From: a virus
IMG/VR virus record: IMGVR_UViG_3300007775_000021
Coordinates: 1 to 31,525 of that record
DNA: 31,525 bases
Direction: 5' to 3' (one strand)
The notes beneath the pieces are model-generated. The model saw only the letters and a program-made list of their open reading frames with translations, was not told where the DNA came from and made no database searches. The translations under genes were made by a program, and so were the position numbers. Shown here in pieces: positions 2,536 to 7,726 of this stretch (position 1 is the first letter of the stretch; each line of letters opens with the position of its first letter).

Positions 2536-3114
2536 ATGTCGATCGAAGAAAAACGTTTTTGTCAAAATTGCGGCCAGCTGCGAGAAAGTCTGAATAAGGA
2601 TAATATCTGTGTGGTCTGTTGTCCTGGGGAATATATACCGGATTATTGCCATAAAGTCACAATGCCCGGGGGCCAGGTACTTGCCGGCCGTACCATCCAG
2701 GGCGCCCCGAGTTCGGCGCCGGCGGCAATGAATAATACTCTTTTCATGAAAAGCCCGGCCCCCATGAAAAGCGGGGATTGCTGGAATGAAAGGTCAATAT
2801 CAGTAAGGGACGGGTACGAACCGCTTTTCAGGGTATTGGCTGAAGCCCTTGACCAAGCCCAGGCGGGCAAAGGAAGGGAACGACACGCCAACGGCCGGCC
2901 ATTCATGGAACAACCTATCATAAAAGAAGCGGAAGAGTCCGGAGTCGGTTTTTTGTGCGGTCAGGTACGGAAAAAGATACTCGAGGCGAAAAATTGCCCG
3001 GATCTTGAAAGGGCAAAACGGGATATACTGGGATCGATCGTTTATGCTTCGGCTATGGTGCTCTTCATAGAGCGTGAAGCCGGCAAACTGGCGGCGCCGG
3101 TTCACAGGGTTTAA
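2536..3114 (+). CDS. Cys-rich N-terminal knuckle plus helical C-terminal domain, function unknown
   Basis: I start this gene at the ATG at 2536, which has a GAGGGG ribosome site eight bases upstream. An earlier in-frame ATG at 2464 lies inside the polymerase gene. The product is 192 residues. Near the N-terminus there is CxxC, then a second pair CVVC-C about 13 residues on, consistent with a zinc ribbon. The middle is low-complexity and Met/Pro-rich. The C-terminal 70 residues contain RHANGRPFMEQPI and a helical segment with GQVRKKILEA and ILGSIVYASAMVLFIER. That pattern reminds me of small phage all-alpha proteins of the MazG/dNTP-pyrophosphohydrolase kind found near polymerases, but I cannot confirm it. 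It follows the polymerase by 41 bases and probably belongs to the same transcript. It ends convergently with the late operon. Confidence 0.75.
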   Translation: MSIEEKRFCQNCGQLRESLNKDNICVVCCPGEYIPDYCHKVTMPGGQVLAGRTIQGAPSSAPAAMNNTLFMKSPAPMKSGDCWNERSISVRDGYEPLFRVLAEALDQAQAGKGRERHANGRPFMEQPIIKEAEESGVGFLCGQVRKKILEAKNCPDLERAKRDILGSIVYASAMVLFIEREAGKLAAPVHRV

Positions 3115-3298
3115 GCTTTAAATTGCTCGAGGGGCAATTACTAATGAAAGCATCAATCATTTCTCTGAAGCCCTTTAATTGGTAATTGTCCTTTGAGATA
3201 TATTCGGAATCATTAATCCAAATAAAATGGCCCTTGCACTTGTCGCAACCCTTGATACACTTTCCGGGCGCCCGTTTGAGCATGTAATTTAGTACCAT
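3065..3298 (-). CDS. Small Cys-containing protein, last gene of the late (lysis) operon
   Basis: This is a 77-residue protein. Its ATG is preceded by a strong GGAGGA site (3306-3311 on the complement) that lies within the last codons of the upstream gene, with seven bases of spacing. That is good evidence for translation. The N-terminal half contains C-x3-C-x2-C (KCIKGCDKCKG), possibly metal binding, and the C-terminal tail is Pro/Cys-rich. No family is recognised. It has no obvious membrane segment, so a holin role is unlikely. Its last 50 bases overlap, tail to tail, the end of the rightward replication operon at 3114. Confidence 0.6.
   Translation of the reverse strand: MVLNYMLKRAPGKCIKGCDKCKGHFIWINDSEYISKDNYQLKGFREMIDAFISNCPSSNLKLKPCEPAPPVCRLHAL
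3121..3139. terminator. Weak inverted repeat between convergent operons
   Basis: AATTGC and GCAATT form a six-base-pair stem around a seven-base loop immediately after the rightward stop at 3114. No clear T run follows on either strand. It may be a weak or factor-assisted terminator for the converging transcripts, or chance. Confidence 0.2.
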
Positions 3299-3302
3299 TT
3301 TT

Positions 3303-3734
3303 CTATCCTCCGGATAAAATGTTTTTCTTGCTCATTTCCTCCTTTATCGTTCTGACGATAAGATCTTGTATATTCGTTTCCTTTGGTTCCCTGTTTACAA
3401 CCGCAACAAGGTTGCCTATATGTAAAATTATCTTTCGCTCGAGGCCGTCTATCTTTTCATCGATCTTTGTATCTAAGGTTGAAATACGCGCCTCGAATTT
3501 ATCAAATTGTTTATCTCCAATGCCCAGGTCTTTGAATATTTCAGCCCGGCAATCCTTACGGTTTTCTTTACATTGGATAATAGCAACGGCCTTGCGCTTC
3601 CATAATATTCGGTGTTCGATATATGTCTTGACCATTACAAAAGTCATTGAAGCACACCAGGCAATTAGATACTTCCACTCTTTGATATAGCCGTAAAGAT
3701 TACTTATTGCCGAATTATCATTCATTGGATCCAT
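3303..3734 (-). CDS. Single-TM protein with C-terminal coiled coil, lysis cassette
   Basis: A 143-residue protein with one hydrophobic segment at about residues 23-40 (around YLIAWCASMTFVMV), then a basic stretch (WKRK) and a heptad-like region at about 73-110. The positive residues after the segment argue for a cytoplasmic C-terminus. That orientation is opposite to a classical inner-membrane spanin. The start lies six bases after the endolysin stop, with an AAGGGCGA ribosome site; a second ATG three codons on is possible. The position directly after the endolysin fits a lysis accessory protein (holin, antiholin or spanin-like). No family is recognised. Confidence 0.7.
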   Translation of the reverse strand: MDPMNDNSAISNLYGYIKEWKYLIAWCASMTFVMVKTYIEHRILWKRKAVAIIQCKENRKDCRAEIFKDLGIGDKQFDKFEARISTLDTKIDEKIDGLERKIILHIGNLVAVVNREPKETNIQDLIVRTIKEEMSKKNILSGG

Positions 3735-3740
3735 TCGCCC

Positions 3741-4121
3741 TTACTCTCTATAAAAATCATGGCCGCCGATACTGGCAATAAATTTCATCTTTGCCGCCCA
3801 TTTCGGCTTTACAAGGGCCGGGTTAAAATAGTGCGTCGCGCCGGAAAGGTCATTTCCTGAAAGTCGATCGAGTAAGAAATCCTGGACAACATCGATACAA
3901 GCAATAAAGGCGTTGTAATCCTCAATGGCGGGAAACTTGTTTCCGTTATGCCACGAAAATTGATAATCCTGAAGTATAACATCTTCAACGGTAAGATGCT
4001 TTTTTAAGGCCCGGTTCAAACAAACATGAGCAACCGCTATCATTCCCTCTTTACATTCCCCCCGGGCTTCATGATAAATATTGATCGCAAGCCATGTTTT
4101 AAGGCGGCTCAATTTCTCCAT
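3741..4121 (-). CDS. SleB/CwlJ-type cell wall hydrolase (endolysin)
   Basis: This 126-residue protein matches the Hydrolase_2 (SleB) lytic transglycosylase-like domain through its whole length. It shows IYHEARGE with presumed catalytic E18, then GMIAVAHVCLNRA, a QFSW motif and a closing ATHYFNP segment. It should cut peptidoglycan at the end of infection. I start it at the ATG at 4121, preceded by GAGGAAG. A longer frame from 4190 would add a hydrophobic stretch encoded inside the upstream gene and lacks support. With the short start there is no signal peptide or SAR segment, so export needs a holin. It overlaps the phospholipase-like gene by 23 bases. Confidence 0.9.
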   Translation of the reverse strand: MEKLSRLKTWLAINIYHEARGECKEGMIAVAHVCLNRALKKHLTVEDVILQDYQFSWHNGNKFPAIEDYNAFIACIDVVQDFLLDRLSGNDLSGATHYFNPALVKPKWAAKMKFIASIGGHDFYRE

Positions 4122-4554
4122 TTTCTTCCTCTTTGTGGTAATATTTATTCCCGAATAAGTGCACCATATCAAACATAATATTAGCAACAATCGGGTGGTT
4201 TGAATCGCTTACACAATGCCACAATGCATAATCCGCCATCGCCTTGGTAATACCTACACTATAGCCGTGTTGGTAATCAAAGTCATGCTGCAAACAGCAT
4301 GCCCCCCAGTTTTTAACAAAAAATATACTGGCGGCTTTGCTTACTATCCATGGGCTTGAGCAACCGTCGGTAATCTGAAGCGTTTTCTTATAGTCGGCTA
4401 TTGCCTGGGGGGAATTAAGAGCGGAATATACTGAAGATGGTAAAAGGGCTTGCTTTGTTGGGGCACATCCGGAAGCCCCGGCAATTACCAACAAAAGGAT
4501 AATTGCCGGGGGCAAAAAGTTACTCGAGGCCCATTTATACGCCGTTCTTTTCAT
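4099..4554 (-). CDS. Phospholipase A2-like lipoprotein in the lysis cassette
   Basis: This 151-residue protein has a lipoprotein signal: a basic N-terminus, hydrophobic residues 13-27, and the lipobox-like ASGC with C30. The mature part has the marks of the secretory phospholipase A2 fold. These are an early DGC (C65), then CC-x2-H-D (C86, C87, H90, D91) followed by Y94 and an HG turn, and then AD-x2-L-x2-C (D108, C114). In phospholipase A2 the HD pair and the later Asp form the catalytic and calcium site, with the Cys residues in disulfides; I infer the same here. It would sit in the periplasm, lipid-anchored in the inner or outer membrane, and could attack membrane phospholipids during lysis. 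It lies just upstream of the endolysin gene and overlaps it. Enzymatic activity is not proven from sequence. Confidence 0.75.
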   Translation of the reverse strand: MKRTAYKWASSNFLPPAIILLLVIAGASGCAPTKQALLPSSVYSALNSPQAIADYKKTLQITDGCSSPWIVSKAASIFFVKNWGACCLQHDFDYQHGYSVGITKAMADYALWHCVSDSNHPIVANIMFDMVHLFGNKYYHKEEENGEIEPP

Positions 4555-5020
4555 CTATAATGCCCATTCTTCGGCCGGCATCAACTTTGATTCGCTCTAT
4601 CACCTGGCGAAGTATTACCCGCCTTTGTGGCGAATTGTCGGGAAGGACGCCTACAACCTGCACAATATTTGCTTTAACCAGGGTTACCAGGTCCATAAAG
4701 CTTTCTTGTAAGAGGGGGTCAACGCCCCTTTTTACAAGCTGATCCTTAATTAAGGAATCGATCAAAGTCGGCTGTACCGTTGCGGTATCATCCGAAGGAA
4801 TAATTAACAGCAGATCTTTTGCAACTTCATAGGAAAGCGGTATCAATTCCGGCCTTGCCATGAAAGCGCCCCCAACCGCTACGTCAAGCGCCGCCTGTTC
4901 AACCGGATCAAATACCCCATTGCCCAAAGTAGTTTGCATTTTCCCGTCGGGGCCTTGCCCTGCACAACCGGCAATGAAAAGGACCATTGAAAGAAAGATT
5001 AAAGAGGTAAGTTTTTTCAT
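4535..5020 (-). CDS. Phage lipoprotein, lysis cassette
   Basis: A 161-residue lipoprotein starting at the ATG at 5020, preceded by AAGGGTGAT. An alternative start five codons upstream at 5035 forms an ATGA overlap with the preceding gene. The signal peptide ends in the lipobox IAGC (C19). The mature protein is predicted mainly helical, with AALDVAVGGAFMARPEL and a long helix containing FMDLVTLVKANIVQVV. Similar helical lipoproteins sit next to holin genes in many prophages, but I know no proven function. An outer-membrane spanin role is possible; however, mature o-spanins are usually shorter and Pro-rich. It overlaps the phospholipase-like gene by 20 bases. Confidence 0.8.
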   Translation of the reverse strand: MKKLTSLIFLSMVLFIAGCAGQGPDGKMQTTLGNGVFDPVEQAALDVAVGGAFMARPELIPLSYEVAKDLLLIIPSDDTATVQPTLIDSLIKDQLVKRGVDPLLQESFMDLVTLVKANIVQVVGVLPDNSPQRRVILRQVIERIKVDAGRRMGIIDEKNGV

Positions 5021-5031
5021 GCTATCACCCT

Positions 5032-5223
5032 TCATTTTTCGGACGCCTTAAAAAAGAGCCCTTGTATTAATGTTACCAGAGTATATAGACCGATTGCAAT
5101 CTCTACAATCGCGCCCTGATATTCTGGCGATACAGTATGCCCCAAGGCGCCGGCCAAAAGCGCCCCCGCCTTAACATACTTTGCTATTTGTTCCCTGTTT
5201 GCAATTGTCTTATTTCTTGCCAT
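5032..5223 (-). CDS. Small membrane protein, putative holin
   Basis: I start this 63-residue protein at the ATG at 5223 because GGAGGG lies seven bases upstream (complement of 5231-5236). The frame extends 15 codons further without ribosome-site support. After a charged N-terminus there are two hydrophobic stretches: a weak one around KAGALLAGALG and a stronger one around AIVEIAIGLYTLVTLIQGLFF. They are separated by a short polar turn, and the tail is KASEK. Size, topology and position at the head of the lysis genes fit a small class II-type holin that would release the endolysin. No family signature is visible, so this is inference from context. Confidence 0.6.
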   Translation of the reverse strand: MARNKTIANREQIAKYVKAGALLAGALGHTVSPEYQGAIVEIAIGLYTLVTLIQGLFFKASEK

Positions 5224-5249: not shown

Positions 5250-6941
5250 TTATATCCGGAATAGCCACAACTCAATACTGGTGCCGGCGGTAATTGTGGT
5301 TTCCCCAACGTTCCTGATTGTTACTTCAACGGCCCCAGATTCGGAAACCGAAATATCATTCAGTGATACATTTATAGAGCTCGATTTAGAGAGTATCATC
5401 CATACCGGGTAATTTTGATCCGCTAAAATATGATAAAATTTGAACTGTTCGAAGCCGCCAACAACTATATTGGCCGACGCGGTAACCGTTATCGGTTGCT
5501 CATTCCTGTAGAGCATATCGCCGCCGTTAAAAGTTGCTAGTATGTCAGCAACTCCAACACAGGCAACCGCTGAAGCGTAAGTACTCCGGGCTTTCCATTT
5601 TACTGTCATTGCGGTAAGTAAATTATCCGCCAGGTGGTCTTGGGTGAAGGGCCTAGCCGCGGAAGCATCGAGGCGCCCGTTTACCCATTTTCCGATTGCA
5701 AGCTGTGTCGGGGTGCCGGCGTCGAAGCCATTTCCCCCTAGCCAGGACCTAACCCAGCACTCAAAACGCGGGATAGCAACGCCCGTTTGGTTATTGAGCA
5801 AGGCGCCCCCACCGTTTACAAAATCGATCGCCAAAACATACAGCCCGAGGCCGTCATTATGGGACGCCGCGCCGTCGAACAGAACGGCGTTGATAGTATT
5901 TGTAATAAAGTTTCCGTAAACGGCACAACCTTGGATTACATCATCGACAAAAGCTGAATGGTAATTAACAGCTGTGGTACAACCGGAAATCGCGTTAAAA
6001 TTTACTCTCGTATCGAGAACCGTTGAAGCCGAACCACTGGCGCCGGAAGAAAATTTAATAGCCGTTCCAACGGTATTAAACTGATCGACAAATATTTCAG
6101 CCAGGTTGCAACGAACCTCGAGGCCTATCCCGGTAAAATTTGAAAGAGTCGGTATTCGGTATTGCCCTATCATGTTTCCGTTCGGGAATAATACCGCGTC
6201 AGCCAGGCCGCCGAAAGGAACAAAGCCGCAATGCCCTTTTGCTTCAATGATCGAGTTTGTCGGCACTTGTACCCGGGTACCGATTCCGTATTGTGCCGCG
6301 GTCATTATGCAAGGTTTCCGCCAATCCGCGGAAGCTTGCCAAGCCGCTTGAATTGAATTGTAATCGTTCGCCGCGGCCCCGGTCCCCAGGGCGCCGGCCA
6401 TCTCCGGAGTTACCCAGGGAATCACACTTACCCAGCAACCAGTACCGACGCCCGTGCCTTGCGTGGAAAGATACGTCGGCAGGGTGCTAACAGTCCCGTC
6501 AAAGCCGCCGGCTACGCTCGGGTCGATAACGCTTATACCGTCCGCAACGGCTTTGTTGACGGTAGAATCCCACCGTAGGGCATTGAAGCCCTTATCAGAT
6601 CCGCCGGGGAAGAAAGAAAGAACCGTGACAAATTTTCGATCCGCTGAAGCTATGTCGATAAGTTCTTTCATACTGGCAACGGATTGGCCCATCAGGAAGA
6701 ACATGGCCCGCAGGTATTGAGATTCCAAAGCGGTATCAGCATTTCCCGACGGGGTAACACCGGCTTTACTCAACAGGGCTTGTTGAAACCCGAAAACGTC
6801 ATTGGCCCGGCCCTCAAAATACGGGGTACCATCTCCGACGCCTGGCGCCGTTTCGTTTTTAGAGCTACCATAAGGATACGCCGCAGTCGGGGCGGTTATC
6901 CTTCCGGACATAGTCGAATTAGTACTTGGGTTAAGAGCCAT
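5250..6941 (-). CDS. Tail fibre protein
   Basis: A 563-residue protein. The N-terminal 100 residues follow a pattern common in phage tail fibres: YPYGSSKNETAPG, GTPYFEGRANDVFGFQQALL and AGVTPSGNADTALESQYLRAM, presumably the baseplate-attachment part. The rest is rich in Gly, Ser, Thr, Asn and Val with many short beta segments, consistent with a trimeric beta-structured fibre or beta-helix, and it should bind the cell surface. It sits downstream of the gp48-like baseplate gene, where fibre genes normally lie, with an AAGGGAG site about ten bases before the ATG. No tail-fibre assembly chaperone gene follows it. Confidence 0.85.
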   Translation of the reverse strand: MALNPSTNSTMSGRITAPTAAYPYGSSKNETAPGVGDGTPYFEGRANDVFGFQQALLSKAGVTPSGNADTALESQYLRAMFFLMGQSVASMKELIDIASADRKFVTVLSFFPGGSDKGFNALRWDSTVNKAVADGISVIDPSVAGGFDGTVSTLPTYLSTQGTGVGTGCWVSVIPWVTPEMAGALGTGAAANDYNSIQAAWQASADWRKPCIMTAAQYGIGTRVQVPTNSIIEAKGHCGFVPFGGLADAVLFPNGNMIGQYRIPTLSNFTGIGLEVRCNLAEIFVDQFNTVGTAIKFSSGASGSASTVLDTRVNFNAISGCTTAVNYHSAFVDDVIQGCAVYGNFITNTINAVLFDGAASHNDGLGLYVLAIDFVNGGGALLNNQTGVAIPRFECWVRSWLGGNGFDAGTPTQLAIGKWVNGRLDASAARPFTQDHLADNLLTAMTVKWKARSTYASAVACVGVADILATFNGGDMLYRNEQPITVTASANIVVGGFEQFKFYHILADQNYPVWMILSKSSSINVSLNDISVSESGAVEVTIRNVGETTITAGTSIELWLFRI

Positions 6942-6955
6942 TTTTATTTACTCCC

Positions 6956-7726
6956 TTAGATATAATTTACTAAAATTCCTAGCCATTTTCCGGTAGGACA
7001 TATTTTTAAGCATAAATCCTCGAATTCGTCCCGCCGGTTTTCCGGCACTTCCGCTTTATCCGGAAACGACGCCGCTCCGATATAAATATAATGCGGGTAG
7101 GTATCCGCGTCCGGGGGCATTATGTATTGTTTCCTGGTTCGAAAAATTATTACTAAGCCGTCCATTGCATTGTCCCCGCCGTCCAGCATCTTCGGCGCCC
7201 CGTCGCAGATATAGCGGTTATAGGTCAAGGGGATCTTATTTACAAGCGGATAGCCGGCCGGGTTCTCTGTTGCCCCGTCCATCGCCTGGGCGCCGCCGTC
7301 CTGGGCATCTTCGGTACCGTCGCCCATGATGTAAGGTAGCCCGCCGGTTCCGTCGTCAAGATATGTAAAAGGGCTTCGGGTTAGTACCCCATCCCACCAT
7401 TCATGTATATAAACGTCAAAACCGGCCGCTCTTAGCGTGTTCTGTATATACCCGGGTGATTGGCCGCCTAAAGCTTTCCATGCAGCGTCAAGGCGTGCCC
7501 GGCGCTCTTCCTCGCTTATATTTGCGCCGGGTAATGCGAACTGAAATTCCCAGCTTTCGAGCGTTCGAGTTCGGGCGGGGTCAATATCGGTAAAAATGAG
7601 GTCGAAATATTCCCTGATATCCGCCGGCAAGCTGGCCAGGCCCAGAATAAGCCGCCTCAAGCTCTTATCTATTGTGATATTCCAGGCTCGAGCCCTGGGC
7701 AATAGGTGTTTAAATATGTTTATCAT
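6956..7726 (-). CDS. Baseplate/tail protein of the Mu gp48 type (DUF2313, YmfQ-like)
   Basis: A 256-residue protein. The first 110 residues match the DUF2313 pattern: KHLLPRARAWN, helical region, and SEEERRARLDAAWKALGGQSPGY. The C-terminus has the usual ending around PHYIYIGA and CLKICPTGKWLGI. In Mu-like baseplates this protein caps the wedge and links it to the fibre. Residues 123-190 contain an unusual Gly/Asp-rich segment (MGDG, QDGGAQAMDG and LDGGDNAMDG) related to segments in the two neighbouring wedge proteins. Its ATG overlaps the gp47-like stop as ATGA. Confidence 0.9.
   Translation of the reverse strand: MINIFKHLLPRARAWNITIDKSLRRLILGLASLPADIREYFDLIFTDIDPARTRTLESWEFQFALPGANISEEERRARLDAAWKALGGQSPGYIQNTLRAAGFDVYIHEWWDGVLTRSPFTYLDDGTGGLPYIMGDGTEDAQDGGAQAMDGATENPAGYPLVNKIPLTYNRYICDGAPKMLDGGDNAMDGLVIIFRTRKQYIMPPDADTYPHYIYIGAASFPDKAEVPENRRDEFEDLCLKICPTGKWLGILVNYI

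Follow-up and report, generated by a model that had tools for sequence, protein, structure and literature searches.

The 31,525-nt viral DNA analysed here along its full length (IMG/VR record IMGVR_UViG_3300007775_000021, hereafter the window) carries in its lysis cassette a gene for a lipoprotein whose homology to phospholipase A2 (PLA2) is established at the level of sequence, and whose phospholipase activity is likely. The protein is a member of PHROG_6098 (E 6e-13), a family with no assigned function, and matches PHROG_1158 more weakly. As the best explanation, I propose that a late phage gene encodes a group XIV-type PLA2 lipoprotein which would be sorted to the outer membrane and act as a last-step lysis factor, instead of or together with a divergent spanin; I hold this reading to be evenly balanced between right and wrong. 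It builds on the homology, the conserved catalytic residues, the lipobox and the linkage to the cassette, and would entail calcium-dependent catalysis, an outer-membrane location, triggering and a role in lysis.

The plus strand of 4099-4554 is interrupted by many stops in translation, and the PLA2-like ORF, recognised by its reading frame, lipobox and PLA2 signature, lies on the minus strand (4554..4099; 151 aa). Its N-terminus has a signal peptide (MKR...) followed by the lipobox ASGC30 (codon of Cys30, 4465-4467) and a mature start of C-A-P-T. The core reads D63-G-C65-S ... C86-C87-x2-H90-D91-x2-Y94 ... A107-D108-x2-L111-x2-C114, with the sequence blocks TDGC65S, C86C87LQH90D91FDY94 and AD108YALWHC114 (minus-strand codons: C65, 4360-4362; H90, 4285-4287; D91, 4282-4284; D108, 4231-4233). 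Of the 122 window ORFs, this one alone contained the motif CC..HD..Y-(5-40)-D-x5-C, and the motif did not arise once when the protein was shuffled 200,000 times, which bears out the initial annotation's description of a lipobox protein with the CC-x2-HD...AD-x2-L-x2-C pattern of PLA2. The features of an outer-membrane lipoprotein, namely a signal peptide, a lipobox and no Asp at +2, are all present; since position +2 is Ala rather than Asp, sorting to the outer membrane is expected under the E. coli +2 rule. The mature proteins of lipid-anchored relatives begin with CSP, CAP or CSF.

Single-sequence searches of Pfam, NCBIfam and the PDB with the window protein gave no PLA2 match, and a family profile was needed to reveal the relationship. 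A pattern scan of viral contigs yielded 55 loci, and with those added by further scans the family came to 66 non-redundant members. Across 41 aligned members, C65, C86, C87, H90, D91, Y94, D108, C114 and G135 were invariant; the HD block had been specified in the pattern used for searching and its columns are hence partly fixed, while C65, D108 and C114 lay outside the pattern. The catalytic triplet H90/D91/D108, whose conservation among homologues the initial annotation had made a touchstone of its PLA2 reading, thus held in all 41 sequences. The D-x-C-[ST] start of the calcium loop appears as TDGCS in the window, and its Asp is substituted in some short members of the family; two disulfides are predicted in the core. 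When the family profile was compared with the PDB, the only sequences at E<=10 were four group XIII/XIV PLA2s of the Streptomyces/fungal type (1faz, 7ygk, 4aup and 8k1w; E 0.003-0.03), and the alignment ran over the entire core, V-x2-FG at the C-terminus included, with H90, D91 and D108 placed on the PLA2 catalytic residues. An hhalign comparison of the family with these PLA2s gave a probability of 96.2% (E 2e-9), against at most 4.8% for 100 column shuffles and 0.6% for the reversed profile, so that profile comparison also came out in favour of the original PLA2 claim. Pfam searches with the 41 members found PLA2G12 in 14 (best E 2e-4) and DUF1353 in 10 (best E 3e-4). PHROG_6098, functionally unassigned so far, gains from this a functional hypothesis and a link to DUF1353/TtaP enzymes.

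Two predicted models were all-alpha, with mean pLDDT values of 80.7 and 79.2. The comparison of predicted structure with PLA2 folds, which had also been suggested as a check, gave weaker results than the sequence: Foldseek of both models against the PDB retrieved no PLA2, while a viral model library returned DUF1353 proteins and several parvovirus VP1 proteins among the best matches, all of them weak (E 0.5 upwards). Parvovirus capsid proteins (VP1) carry a PLA2 domain.

The closest enzymatic counterparts differ from the phage family in size, anchoring and context. Group XIII/XIV secreted PLA2s (Streptomyces violaceoruber, 1faz/1it4/1kp4/1lwb; Tuber borchii, 4aup) have in common with it D-x-C-[ST], C-x2/3-HD-x2-Y, a second Asp and the C-terminal V-x2-FG, whereas the phage proteins are shorter, carry a CC pair before HD, are anchored by a lipid or a transmembrane (TM) segment, and are phage encoded. 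Their D-x5-C spacing is that of classical secretory PLA2, unlike in group XIII/XIV. For TtaP, a member of DUF1353, PLA2 activity has been proven biochemically: it cleaves PE/PG in E. coli lysates, with a His-Asp plus second Asp active site in which the catalytic Asp is required; its deletion had no envelope phenotype (PMC11525133). TtaP and other DUF1353 phage proteins share the His-Asp and Asp core and have prophage relatives, and the TtaP islet holds the muramidase TtsA; however, TtaP shows no obvious signal sequence, the four disulfide cysteines are missing from it, and lysis is not among its reported functions (PMC11525133). Tox-PLA2 domains share the motif DxC[ST], CxxHxxxY, C, and a Campylobacter phage is among their listed carriers, but they are described as toxin domains of bacterial conflict proteins (PMC3482391).

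The gene sits in a minus-strand cassette in the order holin-like protein, 161-aa lipoprotein, PLA2-like lipoprotein, SleB-type endolysin, TM plus coiled-coil protein and Cys-rich protein. Directly upstream of the cassette lies the tail fibre gene (5250..6941; PHROG_26525 tail fiber, E 6e-14). It is followed by a 63-aa holin-like small protein (5032..5223), called from its position and hydrophobic segments, with ATG 5223 behind a GGAGG site and no confident Pfam or PHROG family match. A second lipoprotein of 161 aa (4535..5020; lipobox IAGC, mature CAGQ) gave no match of note in Pfam, PHROG or NCBIfam and is a candidate outer-membrane partner. The statement that a putative holin and another lipoprotein precede the PLA2-like gene was therefore correct (5223..5032 and 5020..4535), and when all frames of the 31.5-kb window were scanned, its coding strand had only two credible lipoproteins, namely the PLA2-like protein and the adjacent 161-aa one. 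The SleB-type endolysin (Hydrolase_2; 3741..4121) matched Pfam PF07486 (E 8e-17) and PHROG_938 endolysin (E 3e-18), both with the longer form beginning at TTG-4190. Its start is most likely ATG 4121, which is preceded by the ribosome-binding site AAGAGGAAG; TTG-4190 was rejected on account of this good site, and in the protein begun at ATG-4121 no signal peptide is evident. The 3' end of the PLA2-like gene lies inside the endolysin gene, and the overlap that had been noted earlier amounts to 23 nt with the ATG-4121 start. Further downstream are a 143-aa protein with an N-terminal TM segment and then a coiled-coil-like region, read from the sequence as a candidate divergent i-spanin (3303..3734), and a 77-aa Cys-rich ferredoxin-like protein (3065..3298). 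The latter has counterparts in the cassettes of three related loci, L012, L014 and L018 (BLASTP E 0.001 to L018; hhalign E 3.5e-5 to an L012/L014/L018 profile).

Members of PHROG_6098 came in two architectures. The lipid-anchored form (about 130-150 aa; the window and L012-L019) makes up a small clade, all from IMG/VR contigs, while the short form (about 75-85 aa) has no signal peptide and ends in a hydrophobic C-terminal segment. C-terminal hydropathy was 0.79 in the window protein; it did not exceed 1.12 within the lipid-anchored clade and had a median of 1.72 in the short forms, and from this difference the lipid anchor seems to stand in for the C-terminal TM segment of the short forms. A search of genome contigs gave no match to the lipid-anchored clade and hence no named host. 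The named genomes that carry a short-form gene (Pseudomonas, Fulvimarina, Aureimonas, Bdellovibrionales and Oligoflexia) are all Gram-negative, as are the hosts of the phages closest to the window in terminase and sheath (Shewanella, Acinetobacter, Vibrio, Oceanospirillum and Aeromonas); judged from these sequences, the host of the window's phage is probably Gram-negative too.

Linkage of the lipid-anchored clade to lysis genes was well supported. An endolysin lay within 1.7 kb in the window and in all five non-redundant relatives that could be judged, compared to 8 of 49 short forms (Fisher P 0.0004, indicative rather than a clean test as the lysis queries were drawn partly from the same loci). 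The endolysins beside the clade are of unrelated types, SleB, M15 and PHROG_3108, M15 being a clear Pfam match in L016 (E 4e-7) and sub-threshold in L019. PHROG_3108 (L013:7147-7605 and L015:5266-5907) has no assigned function, and its position together with a sub-threshold Phage_lysozyme2 match in L015 suggests an endolysin. L012 and L013 hold near-identical cassettes in which the endolysin has been swapped at about 7144-7605 (SleB versus PHROG_3108 type), with the PLA2, holin-like, TM plus coiled-coil and Cys-rich genes kept across the swap. Among the short forms, the recognised neighbours were mostly tail genes (tail-fibre, sheath, baseplate V and PAAR), and two members adjoin a phage lysozyme (L021) or SleB (L027). 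Two short-form members with additional C-terminal hydrophobic segments are single-ORF fusions of the PLA2-like domain and TM segment with an endolysin domain, of Phage_lysozyme2 type in L048:5944-7065 (E 2e-18) and GH19-like in L049:5977-7113 (E 5e-5, narrowly missing the Pfam cut-off).

The initial annotation had also stated that no recognisable spanin pair is present. By homology this stood: the PLA2-like, 161-aa lipoprotein and TM plus coiled-coil ORFs of the window had no spanin PHROG match. It holds less firmly in terms of gene layout, as the cassette has both a TM plus coiled-coil gene and lipoprotein genes, the two gene kinds of a two-component spanin, and ORF 3734..3303 could form a divergent pair with the 161-aa lipoprotein. 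In L012, L014, L018, L016 and L019, the PLA2 was the only lipoprotein found near the endolysin with a strict filter that overlooks unusual lipoboxes, the one of L015 among them. AeroV_348, a relative of the window's phage, encodes next to its tail spike a lysozyme, a holin, an Rz-like spanin and what looks like a nested lipoprotein of Rz1 type; in three other relatives, SppYZU01, Scuro and PD0307, no spanin was annotated in the regions read. Replacement of spanins is favoured by the absence of a spanin match in the window, by the PLA2 being the sole lipoprotein found near the endolysin in those five loci, and by the Rz-like spanin of the AeroV_348 relative, and the PLA2-like lipoprotein is a plausible enzymatic substitute. 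A wider version, in which the whole family replaces spanins, was rejected: PHL101, which carries a short form after its tail fibre, encodes an annotated Rz-like spanin at a distance of 10 kb, and short forms mostly reside in tail modules. No identifiable spanin was present in about 13% of surveyed Gram-negative phage genomes (PMC6139136), and whether spanin-less phages use other outer-membrane disruptors is a stated open question (PMC12819732), for which a PLA2 in a lysis cassette with a predicted outer-membrane anchor is a concrete candidate.

In the proposed mechanism, a lipoprotein built on a compact PLA2 core of group XIV type (His90-Asp91, Asp108 and two predicted disulfides) would be made late and secreted, and export and lipidation would bring it to the outer membrane, where the PLA2 would face the phospholipid inner leaflet from the periplasm. 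Once the holin and the SleB endolysin had cleared the way through inner membrane and wall, the enzyme would hydrolyse sn-2 ester bonds, presumably in a calcium-dependent manner, and the resulting lysophospholipids and fatty acids would weaken the outer membrane until it ruptured, with the PLA2 acting as last-step lysis factor in place of spanins or alongside a divergent one. Premature damage may be avoided if the enzyme, like other PLA2s, depends on packing defects. Colicin lysis lipoproteins provide a precedent for phospholipase-assisted opening of the outer membrane (PMC9517006). The bolder claim that an outer-membrane-anchored PLA2 has replaced the spanin outright and breaches the outer membrane by phospholipid hydrolysis, as a third class of disruptor beside spanins and disruptins and with the endolysin fusions and a gokushovirus copy as parallel uses, is possible but decidedly tentative.

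Somewhat unlikely, but the most serious competitor, is a divergent two-component spanin that fuses the membranes, with the TM plus coiled-coil protein (3734..3303) as i-spanin, the 161-aa or the PLA2 lipoprotein as o-spanin, and the PLA2 domain in an assisting role, e.g. by producing fusion-prone lysolipids. The gene with the N-terminal TM and coiled coil adjoins the endolysin and lipoproteins are at hand in the cassette, genes of the same build adjoin the PLA2 in L012, L014 and L018 (homology of the window protein to theirs could not be demonstrated), and o-spanins diverge so that spanins are often missed (PMC6139136). Set against this, none of the candidates matched a spanin family, L015 and L016 had no TM plus coiled-coil gene in view near the PLA2, and an o-spanin would have no need of an invariant catalytic core. 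A catalytically dead PLA2-like scaffold is the least probable of the readings considered. In its favour, activity is so far a prediction and the calcium loop falls short of the length seen in classical secretory PLA2; against it stand the invariance of the His, both Asp, the Tyr and the cysteines, and the activity of TtaP, a distant relative.

Two further readings, which I consider improbable to the same degree, place the enzyme outside lysis. The family may be a tail- or virion-linked phospholipase whose lipoprotein clade retained the enzyme for entry or membrane remodelling, as the short forms adjoining tail-fibre, sheath, baseplate V and PAAR genes would suggest; however, a lipobox and signal peptide are ill-suited to a virion component, an endolysin is always near the lipid-anchored clade, and lysis genes are often found at the end of tail-fibre modules anyway. 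Receptor-blocking phage lipoproteins are known, and the protein could be a lipoprotein of the envelope that serves superinfection exclusion or host conversion and simply lies among lysis genes. Here, the overlap with the endolysin gene in the late region, the invariant catalytic residues and the lack of a recognisable integrase when the ORF list was read by eye argue against such a role.

Parts of this proposal have precedents: the PLA2 enzyme family itself, a PLA2 domain in a phage (PMC3482391), and a PLA2 proposed for lysis in the putative lytic cassette of phage WO, where a patatin-like enzyme is encoded beside a holin-like gene (PMC9203015). The phage WO enzyme belongs to the patatin family and is unrelated to the His/Asp PLA2 core (PMC9203015). 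Spanins (Rz/Rz1) and disruptins act on the same outer-membrane step, but they are fusogenic proteins or amphipathic peptides and have no enzyme core. Mycobacteriophage LysB, encoded in a lysis cassette, also attacks the outermost host layer enzymatically, but as a mycolyl-arabinogalactan esterase acting on the mycobacterial envelope (PMC5707550). In the literature searched, which took in a minority of the subscription journals, no paper was found that describes a PLA2 lipoprotein of secretory type within the lysis cassette of a phage.

Three other loci deserve mention. A short PLA2-like gene whose product has a hydrophobic segment at its C-terminus (L022:992-1213) is present in a gokushovirus-like microvirus of 4711 bases (IMGVR_UViG_3300017598_000480; Phage_F capsid, E 5e-153), where it is a candidate lysis gene of a very small genome; a search for further microviruses carrying such a gene returned the same contig only. 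In Pseudomonas phage nickie, a DUF1353-like protein (L007:3800-4213) is labelled 'tail assembly chaperone', as is PHROG_1158, and this label is probably wrong. In Pseudomonas phage ZRG1, the short PLA2-like gene (L002:3968-4204) lies between baseplate V and PAAR-repeat genes, suggesting a role at the tail tip.
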